NCBI GenBank assembly: GCA_016865035.1
Contig: CP018227.1
Coordinates: 3,625,501-3,689,500, forward strand
Source: Kordiimonadales bacterium IMCC3096
GTDB lineage: Bacteria > Pseudomonadota > Alphaproteobacteria > Minwuiales > Minwuiaceae
Direction: 5' to 3'
Length of the DNA stretch: 64,000 nucleotides
The notes under the pieces are model-generated. The model was not told the origin of the DNA, did not search any database, and worked only from the letters and a program-made list of their open reading frames with translations. Positions 42,675-64,000 of this stretch are shown here, one piece after another. Position numbers and translations under genes: made by a program. Each line of letters opens with the position of its first letter. The first letter of the stretch is position 1.

Positions 42675-42751
42675 CGACGCGATCGTTGCCAGAGGTGGTT
42701 CGGTTCGTTTGAACAGTTTCGAGCCGTTTCTTAGGTGGATTTTCCGCTTGG

Positions 42752-43582
42752 TTATGCCGCCACCGGGATTGGTTGCAACTTGATGTGATATGCCTGATCG
42801 GGCGTTTGCCCTTCCAGCGATGAATGCGGTCTCCTTGTGTTGTAGAAGGCCAGGTATCGGTCGATGCCCTGTCGGGCGGCTGACACGCTTTCATAGGCGT
42901 GCAGATAGACCTCCTCGTATTTGACGCTGCGCCAGAGCCGTTCGACAAACACGTTATCGCGCCAAGCGCCCTTGCCATCCATGCTGATCTGGATGTCGGC
43001 GTCCTTCAGCGCCTTGATGAAGTCAATGGACGTGAACTGTGATCCTTGGTCCGAGTTCATGATCTCCGGCTTGCCATATCTGCGCAGGGCATCATTCAAG
43101 GCCTCCAGACACGGCGCTGTTTCCAGCGTCACCGACAGCCGCCAGGCCAGAACCTTGCGGCTGAACCAGTCCAGAACGGCGACCAGATAGACGAACCCTC
43201 GGGCCATGGGAATGTAGGTAATATCCATGGCCCAGACCTGATTGGGCTGCGTCACGGCCAGCTTGCGCAGCAGGTAGGGATAGATCCTGTGACCGGGCGC
43301 AGGCTTGCTGGTGTTCGGTCTGCGATAGAGCGCCTCAATGCCCATCGTTTTCATGCAGGTTGCCACGTGCAGCCGCCCGGCCGTGAAGCCTTCCTGCCGC
43401 AGCAACCCTTTCATCATACGGCTGCCCGCGAACGGGTAGTCCATGTGCAACTCGTCAATTCTGCGCATAAGCTTGAGGTCCGCCGCACTGGTCGGGCGCG
43501 GCGCGTAATACAGGCTGCCCCGGCTGATCCCGAGAAGCCGGGCTTGCCGTGTCAGGCTCAGCCTGTGGTCCGGGCCCGTCAT
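42752..43582 (-). CDS. IS3-family transposase OrfB (copy 1)
   Basis: 276 residues; integrase-core DDE: Asp in WAMDITYIPM, Asp in NSDQGSQFTS, Glu in VFVERLWRSVKYEEV. ATGA overlap with OrfA suggests programmed -1 frameshift or coupling to make the OrfAB transposase. Amino acid sequence identical to copy 2. Confidence 0.95.
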   Translation of the reverse strand: MTGPDHRLSLTRQARLLGISRGSLYYAPRPTSAADLKLMRRIDELHMDYPFAGSRMMKGLLRQEGFTAGRLHVATCMKTMGIEALYRRPNTSKPAPGHRIYPYLLRKLAVTQPNQVWAMDITYIPMARGFVYLVAVLDWFSRKVLAWRLSVTLETAPCLEALNDALRRYGKPEIMNSDQGSQFTSIDFIKALKDADIQISMDGKGAWRDNVFVERLWRSVKYEEVYLHAYESVSAARQGIDRYLAFYNTRRPHSSLEGQTPDQAYHIKLQPIPVAA

Positions 43583-43890
43583 TTCCTTGCGCTCGGCAAC
43601 AGACCGGCCTTGTCGAGCGCGCCCTCTAAAAAATCGTTTTCCAGCGCCAGCTGGCCAATCTTCGCGTGCAGGGACTTTACGTCGATCTGCGGCTCTTTCG
43701 CGGCCTTTGGCGTGTCATCGAAGACACCCGTTACGCCCTCAAGCAGCTGATCCTTCCACTGCTTGATCTGATTGGGATGCAGGTCGAACTGCGTCGCCAG
43801 CTCGCTCATCGTCCTGTCGCCCTTCAGCGCCGCCAATGCGACTTTCGCTTTGAAGGCAGGGCTGTGGTTCCGCCTGGGTCGTCTTGTCAT
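43579..43890 (-). CDS. IS3-family transposase OrfA (copy 1)
   Basis: 103 residues: helix-turn-helix (FKAKVALAALKGDRTMSELA, then TQFDLHPNQIKQWK) followed by a leucine-zipper-like helix. Start chosen at ATG 43890, MTRRPRRNHSPAF; the frame extends upstream to 43941 through the IS end. Confidence 0.92.
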   Translation of the reverse strand: MTRRPRRNHSPAFKAKVALAALKGDRTMSELATQFDLHPNQIKQWKDQLLEGVTGVFDDTPKAAKEPQIDVKSLHAKIGQLALENDFLEGALDKAGLLPSARK

Positions 43891-43976
43891 CTTCGCTCCT
43901 TCGTCCCGGCAACGCTGCCGGATTGGGAGCAGAAAATCCACCTAACTCAACTGTCCAGATTTGTCGGGCCACCTCT

Positions 43977-44356
43977 AGTGACACTGGGGAATTTTCGCTT
44001 ACAACGTGGACGTTGGGCGGTGCATCGCGCCGGATCGAAGCCCACAGTGGCTCGGCTTCCTGGAGATTGTCGTGGTTTCCTGGCAGGAGCCACCACTGCA
44101 CGCTCTCATTCTCGCCCATTGCGGTCAGTGCTTGTCGGACAACACTGTGGGAAGGGGTTGCCGTATCGAAGGTGTCCCCCGCCAGAAGCACGTGCCCGGC
44201 CGCTCGATCAAGCGCCGCCCCGGCAATGCGGCTGATTGCGCCGTGCCGCGCCTCCATTATGCGCCCGCGGATATTGCCGTCCGGCGGTTGAGGAATATTC
44301 GCATAGCGCCGTCCAAGATGCAGATCTGAGGAATGGATAAATCGAAAGGAACTCAC
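43977..44356 (-). pseudogene. SbcD-like calcineurin-family nuclease, N-terminal fragment cut by IS3
   Basis: About 126 codons survive. Metallophosphoesterase motifs I-III are clear: SSDLHLGRRY, LLAGDTFD and LLPGNHDNL, as in SbcD/Mre11-type DNA repair exonucleases. GTG start at 44356 has a strong AGGAGG ribosome-binding site. The gene runs into the IS3 end at 43976, and the expected C-terminal half is not found on the other side of the element (GIY-YIG DNA follows instead). Lies 141 bp downstream of a WYL regulator on the same strand. The remaining domain lacks the later metal-binding motifs, so it is inactive. Confidence 0.88.
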
Positions 44357-44497
44357 GTAGTCGCCTCCTGAAAGACCTGCGCGTGCTGCCGCCCCGCGCG
44401 ACTGAGGTGCAATCTATGCGGTGAGGGTGTCAGTTTTTGTCGGCCGACCCCGCAAGTAGCAATTTGTTTAATTGAATGCGTACATATAGCGAACATA

Positions 44498-45499
44498 TCA
44501 TGGAAATACACCAAAACTCTTCTTGGTACCCTCGATCAGCGCTTTCAGTTCTTTGGGTGCAACAACCTCGACAGAGTTGCCCCAGCAGTAAAGATGCCAA
44601 GCCATTTCGAGCCAGCCTGATGCGAAGAAGTGTACCTCAAGGCGCCCATCGGGAAGGCGTTCCATCGTTTGAGATGGATGGAAGCGCCACTCAGCCGCCC
44701 GATCGGCCGCCTTGGCAGAGAAGCGCCAGATAACCTCGCCGTATTCGCCCTCGTTCTGATAGGTGCCAAATGCTCTGGCTGCATGTTCGGCGATGTTGAA
44801 GTCGGGATCGCGAACGAACCAGGTGTCAGTCACTGTCGCATCGGTGATCCGGTCGAGCCGGAAGTGGCGATACTGCGGCCCTTTCTGGGGTTGGCGGGCG
44901 ACGAGGTAGCGACGAGTCCCGATAAGGATCCCATAAGGTTCGACTTCACGCCGCTCGCCTGCGTAAGAAAAGAGCATGCGGTACGGTCCTCTCACGGCCG
45001 CGGCGACCCTCTCCGAAATCACCTGTTCGATCTGGACGACCGGGCCAGGCCGTGCGGCGACGCCGTGTGCTTCCAGCATTGCGTCCGCATCTGCCTCCGC
45101 GGCCCGAGCAGCGCTCGGCGGCAGCGCCGCGAGGAGTCGGTTTCGTAGATCCGACAGTGCCCTGCCCTGCCTCACATCACCTCTGTCCCTGAGCGCAACA
45201 ATTGCGGATTCTATCGCCTCCAGTTCGTCGGCGCCGGCGAGCCGAAGGCGAGCGAGGGGCACCTCTTCAATCGACCACCTTCGCTTTCGATCATCGCCGT
45301 CACAAATCCGGACGGAGTGAGGAAACGCTTCGGTCATCGCGCGCAACATTCGTTGCGCCGTGCGCTCGGACACCCCGAACTCCTCGATGACCTCATTCAA
45401 TGTCACACCCGAGTAGCGTGACGCTGCGAGATCTGCGAGGCGAAGAAGCTCTATCGCATTCGAGTAACTGATCGACTCCTCCAGTTGTCTGAGGCGCAA
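44498..45499 (-). CDS. WYL-domain transcriptional regulator (copy 1)
   Basis: Up to 333 residues. N-terminal winged helix (LNEVIEEFGVSERTAQRMLR), then a WYL domain (about 160-250, MLFSYAGERREVEPYGILIG, RRYLVARQPQKG, YRHFRLDRITDA) and the C-terminal WCX extension. YafY-type WYL regulators usually repress defence or DNA-damage genes and sense nucleic acid or small ligands. Start is uncertain: TTG 45499 is the first possible codon and has no ribosome-binding site. Homologous along its length with the WYL protein at 60823-61824; each is next to a metallophosphatase-type nuclease gene. Confidence 0.88.
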   Translation of the reverse strand: MRLRQLEESISYSNAIELLRLADLAASRYSGVTLNEVIEEFGVSERTAQRMLRAMTEAFPHSVRICDGDDRKRRWSIEEVPLARLRLAGADELEAIESAIVALRDRGDVRQGRALSDLRNRLLAALPPSAARAAEADADAMLEAHGVAARPGPVVQIEQVISERVAAAVRGPYRMLFSYAGERREVEPYGILIGTRRYLVARQPQKGPQYRHFRLDRITDATVTDTWFVRDPDFNIAEHAARAFGTYQNEGEYGEVIWRFSAKAADRAAEWRFHPSQTMERLPDGRLEVHFFASGWLEMAWHLYCWGNSVEVVAPKELKALIEGTKKSFGVFP

Positions 45500-45575
45500 T
45501 CAGTAGAAGAATTTTGACGTCAAGATGCAAGCGCCTCTAGGCGCTTGATGCGGAGAACGCTAAGCTGAAGAAGAT

Positions 45576-45710
45576 GCTGTCCTCGCCGCGCAGACCGGCC
45601 AGCACGATCCGGATATTCCCTTCGGCGGAATACTGCTCATGGGTGCGGCGGCGGATAACCCAGACCGTCTGCTCTGCCCCGACCTTCGATGCGTCCGATT
45701 TCTGTCTCAT
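45576..45710 (-). pseudogene. IS3-family OrfA remnant
   Basis: On the minus strand the sequence encodes MRQKSDASKVGAEQTVWVIR, then THEQYSAEGNIRIVLAGLRG, the start of an IS3-type OrfA, and is then lost. A plus-strand piece at 45545-45583 reads LDAENAKLKKML, the typical end of such an OrfA, so two remnants meet head to head. The rest of the 316-bp gap 45500-45815 holds no gene. Confidence 0.65.
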
Positions 45711-45815
45711 CTGCGTTCCCTTCGGTCACTACGGCCAGCCAGAATCCTCCATTACAAATACCCGCTGATCCATCCCACAAACCCTGACGTCAAAAAGTAC
45801 CCGACATTCAGTTCG

Positions 45816-46611
45816 GCATTGTCAGAGCAAATCTGTTGTGGTTGCGGTAAGCTGTCGGGATGCGTAATCCTTTCCGCTATTTCAACAGCTCGCCGGCGGT
45901 GATCCGCACTGCGGTCCTGCTCTACATTCGGTTTCCGCTGTCGCTGCGCCAGGTCGAAGACCTGCTGCACGAAAGGGGCATCGACATCAGCCATGAGACC
46001 GTCCGGTTCCGGTGGAACCGCTTCGGACCCATCGTCGCCGCCGAACTTCGAAAACGGCAGCGGAGAACGGCTCGCCAGCACATCCAGTGGCGGTGGCACC
46101 TGGATGAGGTTTTCGTCCGGGTCAACGGCGAGAGGTGCTATCCTTGGCGGGCCGTGGATCATGAAGGTGAGGTAGTGGAAGTCTACGTCACGAAGACGCG
46201 GGATCGCAGGGCTGCGCTGGATTTCCTGAAGCGCGCATTGAAGCGATTCGGCTCACCTCGAAGTATCATCACCGACCGGTTTCGTTCTTATCGCGCGGCA
46301 CTCTCGGACCTGGGCATCGCCGGTCGCCAGGACACCACCAGATGGCTGAACAACCGGGCGGAAAATTCCTATCAGCCGTTCCGACGACGAGAGCGATCCA
46401 TGCAACGTTTCCGAAGTGATGTCACGCTTCAGAAATTCGTCTCCATTCACGCTGCCATCCAAAATCACTTCAACATCGATCGTCATCTCACCCGTCGGAC
46501 CGACTTCAGGCAGCGCCGCGATGCGGCGCTTGCTGAATGGCGACAGTTGGCAATCTGACCTCACACAGATACAGATCTGCTGCGCCGGGGTCAGATTGCT
46601 CTGACAATGCC
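45816..46611 (+). mobile_element. IS6-family insertion sequence, copy 1
   Basis: 796 bp. Left end GGCATTGTCAGAGCAA and right end the inverse TTGCTCTGACAATGCC form a perfect 16-bp inverted repeat. One transposase gene fills the element. No 8-bp target duplication flanks it (TTCAGTTC on the left, CACCAGAG on the right), which fits replicative/cointegrate rearrangement. Confidence 0.93.
45860..46558 (+). CDS. IS6-family transposase (copy 1)
   Basis: 232 residues. DDE residues lie in HLDEVFVRVNG, IITDRFRSYRAA and NNRAENSYQPFRRRE; N-terminal RYFNSSPAVIRTAVLLYIRF matches the group. About 95% identical to copy 2. Appears intact and may still be active. Confidence 0.96.
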   Translation: MRNPFRYFNSSPAVIRTAVLLYIRFPLSLRQVEDLLHERGIDISHETVRFRWNRFGPIVAAELRKRQRRTARQHIQWRWHLDEVFVRVNGERCYPWRAVDHEGEVVEVYVTKTRDRRAALDFLKRALKRFGSPRSIITDRFRSYRAALSDLGIAGRQDTTRWLNNRAENSYQPFRRRERSMQRFRSDVTLQKFVSIHAAIQNHFNIDRHLTRRTDFRQRRDAALAEWRQLAI

Positions 46612-46887
46612 CACCAGAGGCCTATGACAACATTGCTGATTATCTTGCACAATGCGGGATTGCGGAATTTGATTACGGTTGCAGGCTGGAACGAGACCAA
46701 GCCTTTATGTGGTCCAGGTTCCAGAGGACAGAGCACGTCACAGCTCCTCATTCTCATAGGTTGGAGCTTCCGGCAAACCCGGCGCGGTTCAATCTTCGTG
46801 ATTAAGAGAACAGCGATGATGGAACGAAATTGACATGCCCCGCTCACTTCGCTACGCCCATTCCAATTTTCACCTCATGTGCCCGAT

Positions 46888-46908
46888 GCAGATTGCACTG
46901 ACAGTGCC
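46888..46908 (+). repeat. Decayed IS6 right end
   Basis: GCAGATTGCACTGACAGTGC(C) matches the IS6 right terminus (GTCAGATTGCTCTGACAATG) except at a few positions. It ends exactly at the base before the ATG of the HNH-WYL gene. Confidence 0.6.
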
Positions 46909-47703
46909 ATGTCAAGCATGACCGGACGCTGTCTCATATGCGGGGAGGCCGGCAGAATTGGATTGCGCCACCTCACCGACGGACGATCCATTCATACTCG
47001 GTGTCTAGATAAGGCAATCTTGCGTGTCGATGATTTGAGCGAGCAGGCACAGGAGATGTCGGCGCTACCCGTGCTTGAAGGCCTGAGAAAGATAACACGC
47101 ACTTTTTTCCGCCATTCCACACCGGAATCGCAATATGCAGACGATCCAACGCACCTCAATGCCCGGATCGCCAAGCTCCAAAGGGGAATAGTAAAAGTCT
47201 ACGATCATTGGCCGGACTATCCTCCAGATTGGCAAGAACGGCGCGAAGCAATCCTCCATGAACGCGGCGCTCACTGTGAGAATTGTGGATCGGGTCTCGT
47301 TGTACAGATTCACCATCGCCGACCGCTCCGGTCAGGGGGCTCCCACAAGAGCGAAAACCTTCAAATTCTTTGCCGAGACTGCCACCTTCACGCCCATGGG
47401 ACGTCCGAGTTCTGGGGAGATAGGCATAATCGAAGTCCTCAAAGTGCTTCTTCAACCAAGTATGAAAAAAACATTGAGAAACTACTTCAGGCGATAGATG
47501 ATGGAAACGATGTGCGATTTATCTATTTTCGATTTGATGGAAAAAAAATCAGGCGGCGGGTGACGCCTCACAGAATTGATAAGGCGGATACAGGTTACGC
47601 AAAATCAAATGAAAAAACCGTTCTCCATGGATTTTGTCACAAGCGCGGTTCAATTAGGTCATTTTCTGTATTTCGTATTCGTCGATTAATATTATTGAAA
47701 TAG
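46909..47703 (+). CDS. HNH endonuclease fused to a C-terminal WYL-like domain
   Basis: About 264 residues. N-terminal zinc-ribbon-like CLICGEAGRIGLRHLT...HTRC; middle HNH domain (about 115-175: WQERREAILHERGAHCENCG, VQIHHRRPLRSGGSHKSENL, CRDCHLHAHG) with the paired CxxC and the HH/N/H catalytic core. A C-terminal segment (about 190-264: VRFIYFRFDGKKIRRRVTPH ... GFCHKRGSIRSFSVFRI) has the pattern of a WYL domain. AT-rich relative to the rest of the window, hence foreign. Start is ATG 46909 or 46921, because the upstream frame is an IS6 remnant. Boxed in by two IS6 copies. Likely a defence nuclease or its regulator. Confidence 0.75.
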   Translation: MSSMTGRCLICGEAGRIGLRHLTDGRSIHTRCLDKAILRVDDLSEQAQEMSALPVLEGLRKITRTFFRHSTPESQYADDPTHLNARIAKLQRGIVKVYDHWPDYPPDWQERREAILHERGAHCENCGSGLVVQIHHRRPLRSGGSHKSENLQILCRDCHLHAHGTSEFWGDRHNRSPQSASSTKYEKNIEKLLQAIDDGNDVRFIYFRFDGKKIRRRVTPHRIDKADTGYAKSNEKTVLHGFCHKRGSIRSFSVFRIRRLILLK

Positions 47704-47833: not shown

Positions 47834-48642
47834 GGCATTGTCAGACCAAATTCTGAGGTCGCTTTGAACAGCCTTCGGTAGGCTGTCGGGATGCGTAATC
47901 CTTTCCGCTATTTCAACAGCTCGCCGGCGGTGATCTGCACTGCGGTCCTGCTTTACATCCGGTTTCCGCTGTCGCTGCGCCAGGTCGAAGACCTGCTGCA
48001 CGAAAGGGGCATCGACATCAGCCATGAGACCGTCCGGTTCTGGTGGAACCGCTTCGGACCCATCTTCGCCGCCGATCTTCGAAAACGGCAGCGGAGAACG
48101 GCTCGTCAGCACATCCAGTGGCGGTGGCACATGGATGAGGTTTTCGTCCGGGTCAACGGCGAGCGACGCTATCTCTGGCGGGCCGTGGATCATGAAGGTG
48201 AGGTACTGGAAGTCTATGTCACGAAGACGCGGGATCGCAGGGCTGCGCTGGATTTCCTGAAGCGCGCATTGAAGCGATTCAGCTCACCACGCAGCATCGT
48301 AACCGACCGCCTTCGTTCTTATCGCGCGGCACTCTCGGACCTGGGCATCGCCGGTCGCCAGGACACCACCAGATGGTTGAACAACCGGGCGGAAAATTCT
48401 TATCAGCCGTTCCGACGACGGGAACGATCCATGCAGCGATTCCGAAGTCCGGCGACGCTACAGAAGTTTGTCTCCGTCCACGCCGCCATCCACAACCATT
48501 TCAACCTCGATCGTCATCTCACCAGTCGGACCGACTTCAGGCAGCGCCGCGATGCGGCGCTTGCTGAATGGCGACAGTTGGCGATCTGACCTCACCCAGA
48601 TACAGCTCTGCTGCGCCGGGGTCAGATTGCTCTGACAATGCC
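47834..48642 (+). mobile_element. IS6-family insertion sequence, copy 2
   Basis: 809 bp, same orientation as copy 1. Left end GGCATTGTCAGACCAAATTC differs from copy 1 within the inverted repeat, and the right end GCTCTGACAATGCC is as in copy 1. No target duplication (ATGAAAGG left region, ACCTGACG right). With copy 1 it forms a composite-transposon-like pair around the HNH-WYL gene. Confidence 0.92.
47891..48589 (+). CDS. IS6-family transposase (copy 2)
   Basis: 232 residues, DDE positions as in copy 1 (MDEVFVRVNG, IVTDRLRSYRAA, NNRAENSYQPFRRRE). Scattered substitutions (for example RSPATLQKFVSVHAAIHNHF against RSDVTLQKFVSIHAAIQNHF) show that the copies are not recent duplicates. Intact. Confidence 0.96.
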   Translation: MRNPFRYFNSSPAVICTAVLLYIRFPLSLRQVEDLLHERGIDISHETVRFWWNRFGPIFAADLRKRQRRTARQHIQWRWHMDEVFVRVNGERRYLWRAVDHEGEVLEVYVTKTRDRRAALDFLKRALKRFSSPRSIVTDRLRSYRAALSDLGIAGRQDTTRWLNNRAENSYQPFRRRERSMQRFRSPATLQKFVSVHAAIHNHFNLDRHLTSRTDFRQRRDAALAEWRQLAI

Positions 48643-57701: not shown

Positions 57702-58985
57702 CCCAAACAAAACGGCCTCCGGAAAACCCGGGACGCTTCAGAGCGTGGTTTGTAAATGCGAAAGCGCAGTGAGTTCGACGATCTCTTCCATCAGTTTGGA
57801 GAAAGGCTCATCGCCAGCACCTTCAATGATGCTTACGGCGTGCTCACCCGGCGACGTGGAATTTCGTTCGAAGTAACCGTCGCGCCTTGTTGCCCTCGTT
57901 TGTTCGGCCGTGGCCGCGAGCAGGGCAATCGCCGAAAACGCCTGGTCCGGAATAGGAAGGTGGCGCAAATCGCCGGTCGGGACGGGTTTGTCGTTGAAGA
58001 GGTCCTTGGGAACAGAGGCGACGGCTTCCGCGCCGCTCAAGTTTCGTGCCTCTGAAACCGTTGGCCATTCCTTGGCCAGAAGGGGAGATGCATCGAGGGT
58101 GCTGAACCAGTTTGAGACGATTTGCGGGATCGTGGCTTCTTCAAACTCAGCGAGGCTGCTGGTTAGCGCAGAAAGCATGAGCTCCAACGCAAAATGGCAC
58201 CTGCGCCGATATTCGTATTCCGCCCAACTGAATGCGATCCCCGAACTCTGATCTCCTTGAGCGCAGTTCTTGAAATTTCGGACGATAAGAGCGCTCGCAT
58301 TTTCATGCTCGGTAGCGAGCAATCCTTTCGCCCACTTGATGGTGCCATTGAATGCTTCGTATGCCTTGCCGACCCGTTGCCGCTCCGCTTCTGTTCCTGG
58401 GTTCCATGCGGTCACCAGAGCGTCGTACAGCAACTGAGCTTCGCCGGTGGAACGGTCGAGAGAGCCGAGGGAAAATTCAGGTATTGCGGCTTCGGCCTGT
58501 GCTCGTGAAATCTCTTTCCCATTCAAAATGCCGGCGATCGCAGGTGAAGACTGGAGACGTTCTTTCCGAAGCTTCCAGATCTCTGTTCCGCGTGGGCTCA
58601 AGCGATATGGGATCGTCTCATCGCCATCAAGCAAAAGCCCAATCGTTCGGCAGGGCGCGAAATACGTGCCGAGCATTGCGCCACCGGAGTCTTCTGGGAA
58701 CGTGACGGTGCCGCCAGCGACCAATGTGGCCAACCGCTCTTGATGCAGGTTGGCGCCCAAGGCACCGCTCGCGTCAGCTCCGTTTAGCTCGCTGTCTAGC
58801 CGGCTTGCCGCAAGGGTCACGAACTCCATCCGCCGCAAATATGCGGTGAGACGATCCCAATCAAAACCCGTTGATGCGTGTTCGGTAAAATACTCGCCAA
58901 GAGGTGGCCCGACAAATCTGGACAGTTGAGTTAGGTGGATTTTCTGCTCCCAATCCGGCAGCGTTGCCGGGACGAAGGAGCGAAG

Positions 58986-59297
58986 ATGACAAGACGACCC
59001 AGGCGGAACCACAGCCCTGCCTTCAAAGCGAAAGTCGCATTGGCGGCGCTGAAGGGCGACAGGACGATGAGCGAGCTGGCGACGCAGTTCGACCTGCATC
59101 CCAATCAGATCAAGCAGTGGAAGGATCAGCTGCTTGAGGGCGTAACGGGTGTCTTCGATGACACGCCAAAGGCCGCGAAAGAGCCGCAGATCGACGTAAA
59201 GTCCCTGCACGCGAAGATTGGCCAGCTGGCGCTGGAAAACGATTTTTTAGAGGGCGCGCTCGACAAGGCCGGTCTGTTGCCGAGCGCAAGGAAATGA
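58986..59297 (+). CDS. IS3-family transposase OrfA (copy 2)
   Basis: 103 residues with the same sequence as copy 1 OrfA. Start chosen at ATG 58986, where the basic MTRRPRRNHSPAF begins. Confidence 0.93.
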   Translation: MTRRPRRNHSPAFKAKVALAALKGDRTMSELATQFDLHPNQIKQWKDQLLEGVTGVFDDTPKAAKEPQIDVKSLHAKIGQLALENDFLEGALDKAGLLPSARK

Positions 59298-60124
59298 CGG
59301 GCCCGGACCACAGGCTGAGCCTGACACGGCAAGCCCGGCTTCTCGGGATCAGCCGGGGCAGCCTGTATTACGCGCCGCGCCCGACCAGTGCGGCGGACCT
59401 CAAGCTTATGCGCAGAATTGACGAGTTGCACATGGACTACCCGTTCGCGGGCAGCCGTATGATGAAAGGGTTGCTGCGGCAGGAAGGCTTCACGGCCGGG
59501 CGGCTGCACGTGGCAACCTGCATGAAAACGATGGGCATTGAGGCGCTCTATCGCAGACCGAACACCAGCAAGCCTGCGCCCGGTCACAGGATCTATCCCT
59601 ACCTGCTGCGCAAGCTGGCCGTGACGCAGCCCAATCAGGTCTGGGCCATGGATATTACCTACATTCCCATGGCCCGAGGGTTCGTCTATCTGGTCGCCGT
59701 TCTGGACTGGTTCAGCCGCAAGGTTCTGGCCTGGCGGCTGTCGGTGACGCTGGAAACAGCGCCGTGTCTGGAGGCCTTGAATGATGCCCTGCGCAGATAT
59801 GGCAAGCCGGAGATCATGAACTCGGACCAAGGATCACAGTTCACGTCCATTGACTTCATCAAGGCGCTGAAGGACGCCGACATCCAGATCAGCATGGATG
59901 GCAAGGGCGCTTGGCGCGATAACGTGTTTGTCGAACGGCTCTGGCGCAGCGTCAAATACGAGGAGGTCTATCTGCACGCCTATGAAAGCGTGTCAGCCGC
60001 CCGACAGGGCATCGACCGATACCTGGCCTTCTACAACACAAGGAGACCGCATTCATCGCTGGAAGGGCAAACGCCCGATCAGGCATATCACATCAAGTTG
60101 CAACCAATCCCGGTGGCGGCATAA
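59294..60124 (+). CDS. IS3-family transposase OrfB (copy 2)
   Basis: 276 residues, identical to copy 1 OrfB with an intact DDE core. The lack of differences between copies indicates recent transposition. Confidence 0.95.
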   Translation: MTGPDHRLSLTRQARLLGISRGSLYYAPRPTSAADLKLMRRIDELHMDYPFAGSRMMKGLLRQEGFTAGRLHVATCMKTMGIEALYRRPNTSKPAPGHRIYPYLLRKLAVTQPNQVWAMDITYIPMARGFVYLVAVLDWFSRKVLAWRLSVTLETAPCLEALNDALRRYGKPEIMNSDQGSQFTSIDFIKALKDADIQISMDGKGAWRDNVFVERLWRSVKYEEVYLHAYESVSAARQGIDRYLAFYNTRRPHSSLEGQTPDQAYHIKLQPIPVAA

Positions 60125-60342
60125 CCAAGCGGAAAATCCACCTAAGAAACGGCTCGAAACTGTTCAAACGAACCGAACCACCTCTCCAAGCGCCCATGGT
60201 AGGATCGAGAAATAGCGGGCACGCTGTGAGATGGTCGTGATTCCATTGACTAGGCCCAGTTCCACTGCCTGATCAATTCCCCGCACCCCCAGAATGTCCA
60301 GGCCTTGGGTCGTGTCGAGAAGATCGTCCCCCCAGGTAATGA

Positions 60343-60627
60343 TCATTTTAGCCGCTCCCCACGTCCCCAAAGCCGTGGCATCGTGAATTCCCCTGACCAG
60401 ATGCCGCGCCTCTCGGCTCGGGCTTGCTCTTCCACTGCGATGTAGTCCTTGGAATAGCGGCGATAGGCAACCGCGTGGCCCTGCAACACCATCCAGGCGT
60501 TCAGGTCTTCCTCACCATCTCGGCAAACGGCAACGATCCGTTTGTAGCGATCAATATCCCTCTGTTCGCACGTGACGGGACGTGTTTCGATTTTGTCGGC
60601 TAGAGCCAGGGATGCCTGCTGTCCGCA
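60343..60627 (-). pseudogene. Thermonuclease (SNase)-like gene, 5'-truncated
   Basis: The surviving 94 codons read CGQQASLALADKI, VTCEQRDIDRYKRIVAVC, LNAWMVLQGHAVAYRRYSKD and AERRGIWSGEF, the C-terminal two thirds of staphylococcal-nuclease-like secreted nucleases. The N-terminal strands with the metal-binding DGD/R motif are missing and the frame runs into IS3 debris (60640-60809). The stop overlaps the start of the unknown defence-like gene (ATGA), evidence of a former operon. Confidence 0.8.
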
Positions 60628-60722
60628 TCGATGAATAGCCCCTGGATTCGTAGATGCCTTCTGTCCTGATTTTGAGGCGAGGAGTGGACCTGTCGCGGCT
60701 CTGTGCCGCTCCAAGTGCTCGT

Positions 60723-60809
60723 TTAAGCGGCTTTTCGTTCGAATGCGACCGGGCTTTTCCAGCCGAGTGCTGAGTGTCGGCGACGCGTCATCACTGAAAT
60801 CGAACATGC
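60723..60809 (-). pseudogene. IS3-family OrfB C-terminal remnant
   Basis: The minus strand encodes MTRRRHSALGWKSPVAFERK followed by AA and stop, the usual C-terminus of an IS3-family OrfB. Only about 28 codons persist. It abuts the WYL gene stop (60823) and explains the missing 5' end of the thermonuclease gene. Confidence 0.8.
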
Positions 60810-60822
60810 CTTGCTGCCCGCT

Positions 60823-61824
60823 TTAGGTTTCCGCTGGCGGCGGTGCGCCGCCGGCCTCGAGACAACGCCGATAAAGTTCTCGAAGCTCAGCGGGCTCGAC
60901 AACTTCAACCGTTTCTCCCCAGGTAAACAGATGCCAGCACATCTCAAGGAGGCCACCCGCTCTAAACGATACCTGCACCGCACCGTCAGGAAGCTCCTCA
61001 ACAACCTGACTGGGGTGGAAGAGGAACTGCCGCGCATCTCTCGCTCCCCGGCCATGGAAGCGCCAGACAACCTGCTGCGCCGGCTCCTGGAAAATCCCGA
61101 AAGACTGATCGGCAAAACCCTGCAGCGAAATGCCTGGATCGCGCTCGAATGAACGGTCGCTCCTTTCTGCGTCTTCGATCTCAGGCAGGCTGTACATCCT
61201 GATGTACGGCCCGTTCTGGCTTCCCGGTCTGTGAGCGAGAAGGTAGTGGCGGCTGCCAAGCAAAATTCCGTACGGCTCGACCTCGATGTCCGCTACGTCG
61301 GGCCGACCGCGATAACGGTAGCGCAGGCGCACCAATCGACAGGCCTTTATTGCTTCACGCAGTTCGTGGACCAGGGCTGCGTTGCGATGAGGTCTGGGAC
61401 CAGGTCGGATAGCAATACCTTCGGCTTCCACCAGCGCCTCGATATCAGGCTCGAGCCGTCGACCTAGCCCGGGGCTCAGGATCGAGCGCAACTTGATCGC
61501 GAGACTGCCAAGATCTGTCGCGGTTTCGCTGAAACCGTTCTCGGAAAGAAGGCGCCGGGCGCTTTCCAGGGCAGCCAGTTCATTGGCCGTGAACCCGACC
61601 AGCCGATCAATGGTCGCTGGCGGCAGTCGCCAATAGCGACGCCGATCTGTGCCAAGCGTGGCGACGGCCTCGGGGAAGATCGCCACCACTGCATCGCGAA
61701 GCCTGTGCGCCGTACGTTCGGTGACCTCGAACATCTCCATGATATCGGCAAGGCACAAGCCGGAAGCCGAGGCCCGCATGGCTAGGGCGAGGCGCATGAC
61801 CTGTTGAGCCGTTTCGTATCGCAT
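60823..61824 (-). CDS. WYL-domain transcriptional regulator (copy 2)
   Basis: 333 residues. N-terminal helix-turn-helix (LADIMEMFEVTERTAHRLRD), WYL domain (VRLRYRYRGRPDVADIEVEP, GILLGSRHYLLAHRPG, YIRMYSLPEIEDAE) and a WCX extension (FRAGGLLEMCWHLFTWGE). Clearly related to the copy at 44498, including the GPYRMLF/ NGPYIRMYS and EMAWHLYCWGN/EMCWHLFTWGE blocks. Divergent from the YhaO/YhaN pair with 318 bp between, so it is the likely regulator of that pair. Confidence 0.92.
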   Translation of the reverse strand: MRYETAQQVMRLALAMRASASGLCLADIMEMFEVTERTAHRLRDAVVAIFPEAVATLGTDRRRYWRLPPATIDRLVGFTANELAALESARRLLSENGFSETATDLGSLAIKLRSILSPGLGRRLEPDIEALVEAEGIAIRPGPRPHRNAALVHELREAIKACRLVRLRYRYRGRPDVADIEVEPYGILLGSRHYLLAHRPGSQNGPYIRMYSLPEIEDAERSDRSFERDPGISLQGFADQSFGIFQEPAQQVVWRFHGRGARDARQFLFHPSQVVEELPDGAVQVSFRAGGLLEMCWHLFTWGETVEVVEPAELRELYRRCLEAGGAPPPAET

Positions 61825-61937
61825 CTCAGAAGCCTGACGACCGAGTTATCCATACGCAACCGTGGAGTCGGCATGCCTGACCGATATTGTCAGGTCCATG
61901 CGATATCATTGCGTCCAATCGGCTCGTGGAGGAAGTA

Positions 61938-62142: not shown

Positions 62143-63414
62143 GTGACTTCATTTCGTTTCTTTCATGCGGCCGACATCCACCTTGACAGCCCCCTGCGGG
62201 GACTCGCGGGCCAGGAAGGTAACGCCGTCGCGCGTGTGCGCACCGCAACCCGCGAGGCGCTTGATACGCTGGTCCGACTGGCCATCGAGGAAATGGTCGA
62301 TTTTCTTGTCATTGCCGGCGACCTGTATGACGGCGACTGGCGGGATTACAAGACCGGGCTGTTCTTCGCCGCGCAGATGGGGCGGCTCAACAAGGAAGGG
62401 ATCCCGGTCTACCTGCTCCATGGCAACCACGATGCCGAAAGCCAGATTACTCGGCGACTCGACCTGCCCGATAATGTGCATGTCTTCGGCTCACGCAAGC
62501 CTGAGACATTCGCACTCGATGAGATGAACGTCGCGCTGCACGGGCAGAGCTTCCGTCAGCGCGACGTTACGGACAATCTTGTGCCCGACTACCCGGCACC
62601 CGTTCCTGGCGCCTTCAATATCGGCGTGCTGCACACGGGCCTCGGCGGTATGGGGGGGCACGAGAACTACGCCCCGTGCGCTATCGAAGACCTGACCAAC
62701 AAGGGATACGACTATTGGGCGCTGGGGCACGTCCATCAGGCAGGCGTGCTGTATGAAAAGCCTCGGATCGTCTTCCCGGGAAATCTTCAGGGACGGCATG
62801 TCCGCGAAACCGGCGCCAAGGGGGCAAGTCTCGTCACCGTTGAAGATGGTGACATCGTCGAACTGACGACGGTCCCCTGTGATGTTGTGCGCTGGGCAGT
62901 GCTGGCGATCTCCCTGGATGATGCGGAGAATGTCGGCGATGTGATCGAGCGCATTCATGACGCCGTGGAAGCCGCCGTGAATGAGGCCGACGGGCGGCTT
63001 CTGGCGTGTCGTATCGTCCTCGAAGGTCGTACGGCTGCTCACGATCAGCTTGTTGCTTCCGAGGACCGCATGCTGGCCGAAGCCCGCGCCGGTGCTCTTG
63101 GCCTTGGCGATGAAGTTGCCTGGGTAGAGAAGGTGGTAATCGACACGGTTCCCGACGTCGATGCTCGGACTCTGGCTGAGCGCGAAGACGCCATTGGCGA
63201 ACTACAACGGCTGTTGCAGGAAGCCACGGGGGACTCGGACCTGCTGGCGCAGATCGAGGACGATATCGGCAAGCTAGTGCGTCAGTTGCCCCACGATATG
63301 CGCGGTGACATCGACGACAGCGCGCTGAAGGCCGCTGTTGAAGGCGAGTTTGCAGCGCTGATCGGCGAGGTTTCGCCCTATCTGTCCGCTCGGCTCACGG
63401 CACAGGGGGATTGA
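62143..63414 (+). CDS. YhaO/SbcD-like DNA repair exonuclease (metallophosphoesterase)
   Basis: 423 residues. Calcineurin-like motifs are complete: HAADIHLDSP, VIAGDLYDGDW, LLHGNHDAES, VLHTG and ALGHVHQ. A C-terminal capping/dimerisation region (about 260-423) follows, as in SbcD/YhaO. Start is GTG 62143, preceded by GGAGGG at six bases; the longer frame covers intergenic DNA. Ends 2 bp before the ATPase gene. With that ATPase it should form an Mre11-Rad50-like complex that processes DNA ends. Confidence 0.92.
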   Translation: MTSFRFFHAADIHLDSPLRGLAGQEGNAVARVRTATREALDTLVRLAIEEMVDFLVIAGDLYDGDWRDYKTGLFFAAQMGRLNKEGIPVYLLHGNHDAESQITRRLDLPDNVHVFGSRKPETFALDEMNVALHGQSFRQRDVTDNLVPDYPAPVPGAFNIGVLHTGLGGMGGHENYAPCAIEDLTNKGYDYWALGHVHQAGVLYEKPRIVFPGNLQGRHVRETGAKGASLVTVEDGDIVELTTVPCDVVRWAVLAISLDDAENVGDVIERIHDAVEAAVNEADGRLLACRIVLEGRTAAHDQLVASEDRMLAEARAGALGLGDEVAWVEKVVIDTVPDVDARTLAEREDAIGELQRLLQEATGDSDLLAQIEDDIGKLVRQLPHDMRGDIDDSALKAAVEGEFAALIGEVSPYLSARLTAQGD

Positions 63415-63416
63415 GC

Positions 63417-64000
63417 ATGCGAATACGACGCCTCGACCTTCTGCGCTATGGCCACTTTACTGACAGGTCACTTGAGTTGCCTGTCGGCAAGTCGGACTTC
63501 CACATCATCTTCGGCCCGAATGAGGCCGGTAAGTCCACAGCGTTGTCCGCCATCGAGGATCTTCTGTTCGGCATCCACGGGCAGACGATGTACGGGTTTC
63601 TGCATGACTACGGCAGCATGCGGATCGGTGCCGTTCTGGAGAACGGCACCGATGTGCTGGAGGTGCTGCGGAGAAAGGGCAACAAGGACACGCTGCTGGG
63701 GGCAGAAGGCTCGCCGCTGCCCGGCGGGGAGGCGGAACTTCGCCCCTACCTTGCTGGTGCGGACCGAACGTTTCTTGAACGCATGTTCAGCCTTGACCAC
63801 ACGCGCCTTGAAGCCGGCGGCCGGGAAATACTGGAGGCCAAGGACAACGTCGGTCAGATGCTGTTCTCCGCCGGTGCTGGTATCGGAGGTCTGCGGGAAC
63901 GGTTGACCCAGCTTTCCGCCGAGGCGGATGGCTTGTGGAGTCCAGGGCGGAAAGCCAAGCATCGCAAGTTCTTCATCGCGAAAGACAAGCTGGACGCCGC
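63417..64000 (+). CDS. YhaN-like AAA ATPase (SbcC/Rad50-type), N-terminal part
   Basis: 194 codons are visible; the gene leaves the window. The opening MRIRRLDLLRYGHFTDRSLE and Walker A FGPNEAGKSTALSAIEDLLF are the YhaN/Rad50-like ATP-binding lobe; further on, DRTFLERMFSLDHTRLEAGG and LFSAGAGIGGLRERL lead into the coiled-coil. Coupled to the YhaO-like gene with a 2-bp gap. The remainder, including the coiled coil and Walker B, lies beyond 64000. Confidence 0.92.
   Translation, partial: MRIRRLDLLRYGHFTDRSLELPVGKSDFHIIFGPNEAGKSTALSAIEDLLFGIHGQTMYGFLHDYGSMRIGAVLENGTDVLEVLRRKGNKDTLLGAEGSPLPGGEAELRPYLAGADRTFLERMFSLDHTRLEAGGREILEAKDNVGQMLFSAGAGIGGLRERLTQLSAEADGLWSPGRKAKHRKFFIAKDKLDA

Follow-up and report, generated by a model that had tools for sequence, protein, structure and literature searches.

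Relic of a wyl-sbcD locus in Kordiimonadales bacterium IMCC3096: probable decay of a mobile operon with a DriD-type regulator and Mre11-, Rad50-, and Dna2-like products

DriD, the homodimeric WYL activator of Caulobacter crescentus, activates transcription once single-stranded DNA (ssDNA) has switched it on by binding in the WYL domain; the targets known for it are genes for repair and checkpoints, and its binding site is ATACGAC-N7-GTCGTAT (PMC12340889). The WYL regulators of the BrxR family act as repressors of many defence systems, with inverted repeats as their binding sites, and the location of WYL regulators beside varied defence systems is already known; SbcC and Mre11 are unmentioned in the survey of BrxR and CapW (PMC9122601).

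The window analysed here, a stretch of 64,000 nucleotides, covers positions 3625501 to 3689500 of the single 4.29-Mb contig that represents the whole genome of Kordiimonadales bacterium IMCC3096 (Table 1). As an earlier note on this DNA had stated, a WYL gene (WYL1) is followed on the same strand by an SbcD-like gene with a strong ribosome-binding site; these two genes are here called module 1. The gap between them is 141 bp, and the SbcD-like gene has a GTG start codon with AGGAGG 7 nt upstream. The best profile for the SbcD fragment is sbcd TIGR00619 (8e-11, under the cut-off of that profile), and Metallophos PF00149 also matches (4.5e-8). The gene was said to be cut by IS3 after three metallophosphatase motifs, and this is the case: the frame is interrupted at 43976/43977 by the end of IS3 copy 1, so that DLH, GDxFD, and GNHD are kept and the fragment ends ahead of GLAHG and GDWHG, while the intact SbcD relatives have all phosphoesterase motifs I to V, including the last two. 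WYL1 is 333 aa long when counted from the TTG at 45499, and the family alignment points to residue 10 as its true start (alternative ATC at 45472). The codon that aligns with the ATG start of the family is ATC both in WYL1 and in its nearest relative (L032, position 10001), where it is possibly a rare start codon, or the start may lie further upstream.

Table 1. Coordinates of the features discussed, in positions of the window
Feature	Position	Strand	Remarks
IS3-family element copy 1, 1286 bp	42691-43976	minus	truncates sbcD; no target-site duplication
sbcD/Mre11-type gene, 5' part, 126 of about 373 codons	43977-44356	minus	motifs I-III; profile matches and motifs
Predicted operator, DriD-like dyad CGACAAAAACTGACA (minus-strand reading)	44428-44442		WYL1-SbcD gap
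WYL1 regulator (wHTH-WYL-WCX, DriD-like)	44498-45499	minus	WYL PF13280 and WCX PF25583 above cut-off
Transposase debris beside IS (transposase ORF 45860-46558)	45500-45859	plus	upstream border of WYL1
IS3 copy 2, simple insertion	58900-60185	plus	CCA duplication; sequence identical to copy 1, inverted
WYL2 regulator	60823-61824	minus	full-length DriD relative
Dyad with one mismatch, TGACCGATATTGTCA	61878-61892		WYL2-YhaO gap; suggestive only
YhaO-type (Mre11-like) nuclease gene	62143-63414	plus	intact
YhaN-type ATPase gene	63411-64000	plus	runs past the window, ends at about 66959

A 3-bp target duplication accompanies IS3 copy 2, whereas copy 1 is flanked by GCC and AGT and has none; adjacent DNA was therefore probably lost after copy 1 had inserted. 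An inversion between the two IS3 copies was considered as the origin of the truncation and rejected: their flanks do not pair, and copy 2 represents a simple insertion. The rest of sbcD (~247 codons) had no match elsewhere in the genome, and a search of the rest of the genome found neither the partner ATPase of module 1 nor the TM0106 nuclease-helicase of its relatives; given these losses and the transposase debris upstream of WYL1, module 1 is a relic. This copy of the operon is inactive in the IMCC3096 genome, and WYL1 was found in none of six congeners. Elsewhere in the window, IS3 copy 2 interrupts a minus-strand gene of ~440 codons (57738 to 60346), which follows an SNase-like gene (60343 to 60807) and WYL2. 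A fusion of an HNH endonuclease, similar to IscB/ZorE, with a WYL domain (46879 to 47703) lies between the near-identical transposase ORFs 45860 to 46558 and 47891 to 48589.

Intact versions of module 1, which the earlier note had proposed to recover from relatives, were obtained when a WYL alignment was used to scan 84,980 species genomes (GTDB). The five closest relatives of WYL1 (56% to 66% identity), in Kandeliimicrobium, Palleronia, Ruegeria, Falsiruegeria, and Jhaorihella (L032 to L036), all have the order WYL, SbcD, hookless Rad50/SMC-like ATPase on one strand, with WYL-SbcD gaps of 145 to 159 bp, and the TM0106 Dna2-like nuclease-helicase comes next after the ATPase in four of them. 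The earlier note had seen the WYL and SbcD genes of the set and missed both TM0106, the usual further partner, and the relationship to DriD. In the maximum-likelihood WYL tree, WYL1 clades with exactly these five relatives (support 100/98); in the SbcD tree, the window fragment belongs to a 99/99 clade with Kandeliimicrobium, Palleronia, and stand-alone Thioclava SbcD. The plasmid relatives of the fragment in Thioclava (60%) and Rhizobium (52%) are stand-alone SbcD and SMC/AAA pairs without WYL. WYL1-type genes next to Mre11-type nucleases also occur in plasmid and defence-rich contexts, and some relatives are plasmid-borne. WYL-SbcD-ATPase-TM0106 is a real gene set that is apparently uncatalogued: WYL-SbcD-SMC-TM0106 has no model in PADLOC 2.0.0 (2023) and no paper in the open-access literature searched, where no papers were found on TM0106 and defence, WYL and SbcCD, or WYL and RecB-like nucleases. 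The anatomy of the operon and its conservation, clade, operator, catalytic motifs, and family relations are shown by sequence comparison, which also supports the regulatory logic and the DNA-processing anatomy. We regard module 1 as probably being a decayed mobile operon, wyl-sbcD-Rad50/SMC-like ATPase-TM0106, for DriD-type, ssDNA-responsive degradation of the DNA of mobile elements.

The operon ATPase of the relatives is of the Rad50/SMC-like ABC/SMC type with the signature LSGGT, and no zinc hook CxxC was found in it. TM0106 of the relatives matches TIGR03491 above cut-off; it combines RecB-nuclease residues and a set of four cysteines with a domain of the RNaseH fold and a helicase of the DNA2/UPF1 type. 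Invariant residues include C17/C211/C214/C220, D112, D132-x-K134, Q146, Y150, and D315-x-E317, as well as the helicase motifs GPPGTGKT and DEAG. The sequence matches are to UPF1/DNA2 helicases, and Foldseek ranked Dna2 first for an AlphaFold model that was poor (pLDDT 63, pTM 0.35) and was used solely for this fold match. A RecB nuclease with a Cys cluster is thus combined with an SF1B helicase in the relatives.

Both WYL1 and WYL2 match the DriD structures 9pfq and 8tp8 over their full length (E values of 1e-46 to 1e-59), through the complete wHTH-3HB-WYL-WCX arrangement of this homodimeric type of regulator, although WYL1-DriD identity is only about 30%. Among the reported PDB hits no BrxR structure was recognised, and the hits other than DriD were WYL-domain and PafBC-type chains. 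Spaced dyads were counted in WYL upstream regions and compared with shuffles. The top dyads, TGTC-N7-GACA and GTCA-N5-TGAC, each occurred in 14 of 52 regions (shuffled maximum, 4), and the generalised dyad YGWCA-N5-TGWCR in 28 of 49 nonredundant regions, against 0.08 in shuffles. It is present in all seven WYL-SbcD gaps (the window, L032 to L036, and L060; chance of ~0.002 each) and in none of five stand-alone SbcD promoters. Because this pattern was itself derived by fitting to the upstream regions, the independent checks are the result for the SbcD-clade gaps and the published DriD site: the Kandeliimicrobium gap contains ACGAC-AGCATCT-GTCGT, and the CGAC-N7-GTCG geometry beside the controlled gene is exact in L032 and L033 and half-degenerate in the window. 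The whole window contains two occurrences of the dyad pattern against 1.6 expected, so the window site means little by itself, and it is the conserved position that counts.

The main rival to DriD-type activation is that WYL1 is a BrxR/CapW-like repressor, with the operon silent until infection and a ligand other than ssDNA. Repression of many defence systems and binding to inverted repeats within that family (PMC9122601), together with the common wHTH-WYL-WCX layout, speak for it, and WYL genes of the present loci do adjoin defence systems and have inverted repeats upstream of them. Given that the full-length structural matches are to DriD and that the dyad geometry is DriD-like, we consider such a repressor rather unlikely and favour DriD-type activation.

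The WYL family extends beyond the close relatives of WYL1. The remaining loci usually have WYL and TM0106 in divergent orientation, with TM0106 followed by McrBC, Tiamat-like TmtA, YhaO-YhaN (L083), or a second SbcD-SMC lineage (Sphingobium and relatives) that forms a separate clade in the SbcD tree. Since McrBC needs at least eight and TmtA at least six changes on the WYL tree, the partners have been swapped. Neighbours in these loci are McrBC, TmtA, BrxA, and, often on the opposite side, a HEPN protein with invariant RNxxxH, which is likely to be an RNase partner of the TM0106 systems. This HEPN protein (L017, 13021 to 13683) and 44 relatives encoded beside a WYL gene have no Pfam or NCBIfam match. 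Another WYL branch occurs without TM0106 on prophage-like contigs (L042, L043, L045, L050, L053, L065, L067, L069, and L100) and on viral contigs (L225 to L229 except L227, and L233 to L237), with weak cytosine-methyltransferase matches about 2 to 3 kb downstream.

Whether WYL genes lie near Mre11-type nucleases more often than by chance, as had been supposed, depends on the side from which the counting is done. Such nucleases were present in 12 of 80 GTDB WYL loci (1.37 Mb), against ~0.05 expected from their density in 289 alphaproteobacterial genomes, an enrichment that is indicative only because the loci are related; at least three or four separate origins are visible, which for the WYL-SbcD link is a small number. 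From the nuclease side, the excess disappears: among the same 289 genomes, a WYL1-type gene was found within 8 kb of none of 14 SbcD-SMC loci and of 1 of 19 YhaO loci, counts in which a few contigs end early. Recurrence is therefore a property of the WYL-TM0106 core, which is itself patchy (TM0106 in 7 of the 289 genomes).

The second WYL gene of the window, at 60823, is homologous to WYL1 (38% to 40% identity) and adjoins YhaO, as the earlier note had described, but it is divergent from YhaO, whereas the module 1 genes share one strand. Its nearest relative, in G152, is a WYL gene (67% identity) with a distant pair of YhaO-YhaN genes ~3 kb away. The closest YhaO-YhaN pair (G042; 83% DNA identity over 62144 to 66926, stopping at the gene borders) has no WYL2. 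The idea of a recurring module thus holds for WYL1, with its five of five nearest relatives and shared operator, and is weak for WYL2-YhaO as a repeat of module 1, since YhaO-YhaN recurs without WYL2. WYL2 and YhaO-YhaN may be a second, looser case of the link or chance neighbours. The defence island continues downstream of YhaN, outside the window (L003, 3637 to 16290, equivalent to about 67137 to 79790), with a gene of 430 aa, a STAND/NB-ARC-like protein whose WD40 part is a Pfam match, and a cluster of three genes recognised by eye: a cytosine methyltransferase, a GHKL-type ATPase, and a Z1-like helicase.

The operon could instead serve repair, with a DriD-type regulator turning on end resection for the breaks of the cell's own DNA. 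MRN and Dna2 function in repair, DriD is known to act on genes for repair and checkpoints, and the near SbcD relatives are stand-alone pairs on chromosomes or megaplasmids; the Thioclava and Rhizobium SbcD proteins, of the same nuclease clade, lie outside defence settings and count against our explanation. A dedicated repair operon nevertheless seems improbable to us in view of the patchy and plasmid-borne distribution, the defence neighbours, and the replacement of SbcD-SMC by McrBC or TmtA within the WYL-TM0106 frame. A variant of Lamassu, with an SMC-like sensor and an Mre11-like effector, is a still more doubtful candidate: the LmuB profile gives the SMC proteins weak scores (up to 70 bits), but only over part of the protein, no LmuA or LmuC hit was obtained among the operon proteins scanned, and the SbcD and Dna2-like subunits are separate. 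That insertion sequences brought together two unrelated genes, WYL1 and the SbcD fragment, as transposon debris on both sides and the nearest stand-alone SbcD homologues without WYL had suggested, is hardly credible after the GTDB scan, on which this reading was abandoned, as order, strand, and gap are alike in five relatives of one clade with a common operator.

In the mobile-operon explanation that we prefer, WYL1 would act as a DriD-type homodimeric regulator. By analogy with DriD, ssDNA from broken DNA or from a replicating phage or plasmid would be bound in its WYL domain, and the loaded protein would bind the dyad before sbcD and turn the operon on rather than repress it. The products, resembling Mre11 (nuclease), hookless Rad50/YhaN (ATPase), and Dna2 (Cys-cluster RecB nuclease, RNaseH-fold nuclease, and SF1B helicase), may form a complex that recognises DNA ends and carries out ATP-driven opening, resection, or degradation. 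The operon thus probably destroys foreign or broken DNA, and its partners, plasmid location, and patchiness suggest an anti-phage or other defence role directed at mobile elements. More tentatively, these loci might represent an immune platform of Alphaproteobacteria, in which a fixed core, made up of a DriD-like switch that senses ssDNA and a nuclease-helicase of the Dna2 type, is joined by swapped DNA-recognition modules (Mre11-Rad50-like, YhaO-YhaN, McrBC, or Tiamat), the Mre11-Rad50-Dna2 form being a counterpart of the eukaryotic end-resection machine turned against invading DNA. The loci show one regulator and nuclease core with interchangeable sensors, and neither PADLOC 2.0.0 nor the open-access literature searched yielded a system of this kind. 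Tying the DriD sensor family to defence cargo would, if true, explain nuclease immunity triggered by infection-generated ssDNA, and the operon brings Mre11/Rad50-like enzymes together with a Dna2-like one, which makes a resection-type defence directly testable.

Compared with known systems, WYL1 and WYL2 share with DriD full-length homology, the wHTH-3-helix-WYL-WCX layout, and the dyad spacing G-W-C-N7-G-W-C. However, the damage genes that DriD acts on (didA, bapE, recJ, and dnaG) are scattered, whereas WYL1-type genes adjoin a nuclease operon. BrxR and CapW are similar in being WYL regulators encoded beside diverse, exchangeable defence systems with an inverted-repeat operator, but WYL1 is closer to DriD. 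As in SbcCD and Mre11-Rad50, genes for an Mre11-type phosphoesterase and a Rad50/SMC-like ATPase are adjacent; here, SbcD scores under the TIGR00619 cut-off, the ATPase is without the CxxC hook, and WYL and Dna2-like partners are added. YhaO/YhaN follows the same two-protein logic and can fill the slot beside TM0106, but it is a separate nuclease lineage and free-standing in most genomes. TM0106 resembles eukaryotic Dna2 in joining a Cys-cluster RecB-type nuclease to a UPF1/DNA2-like SF1B helicase and differs in having an additional nuclease domain of the RNaseH fold between these parts. Lamassu, McrBC, and Tiamat (TmtA) also combine an SMC-like or AAA sensor with a nuclease but use other effector proteins; the WYL-TM0106 frame of the SbcD-SMC operon is also that of McrBC and TmtA.
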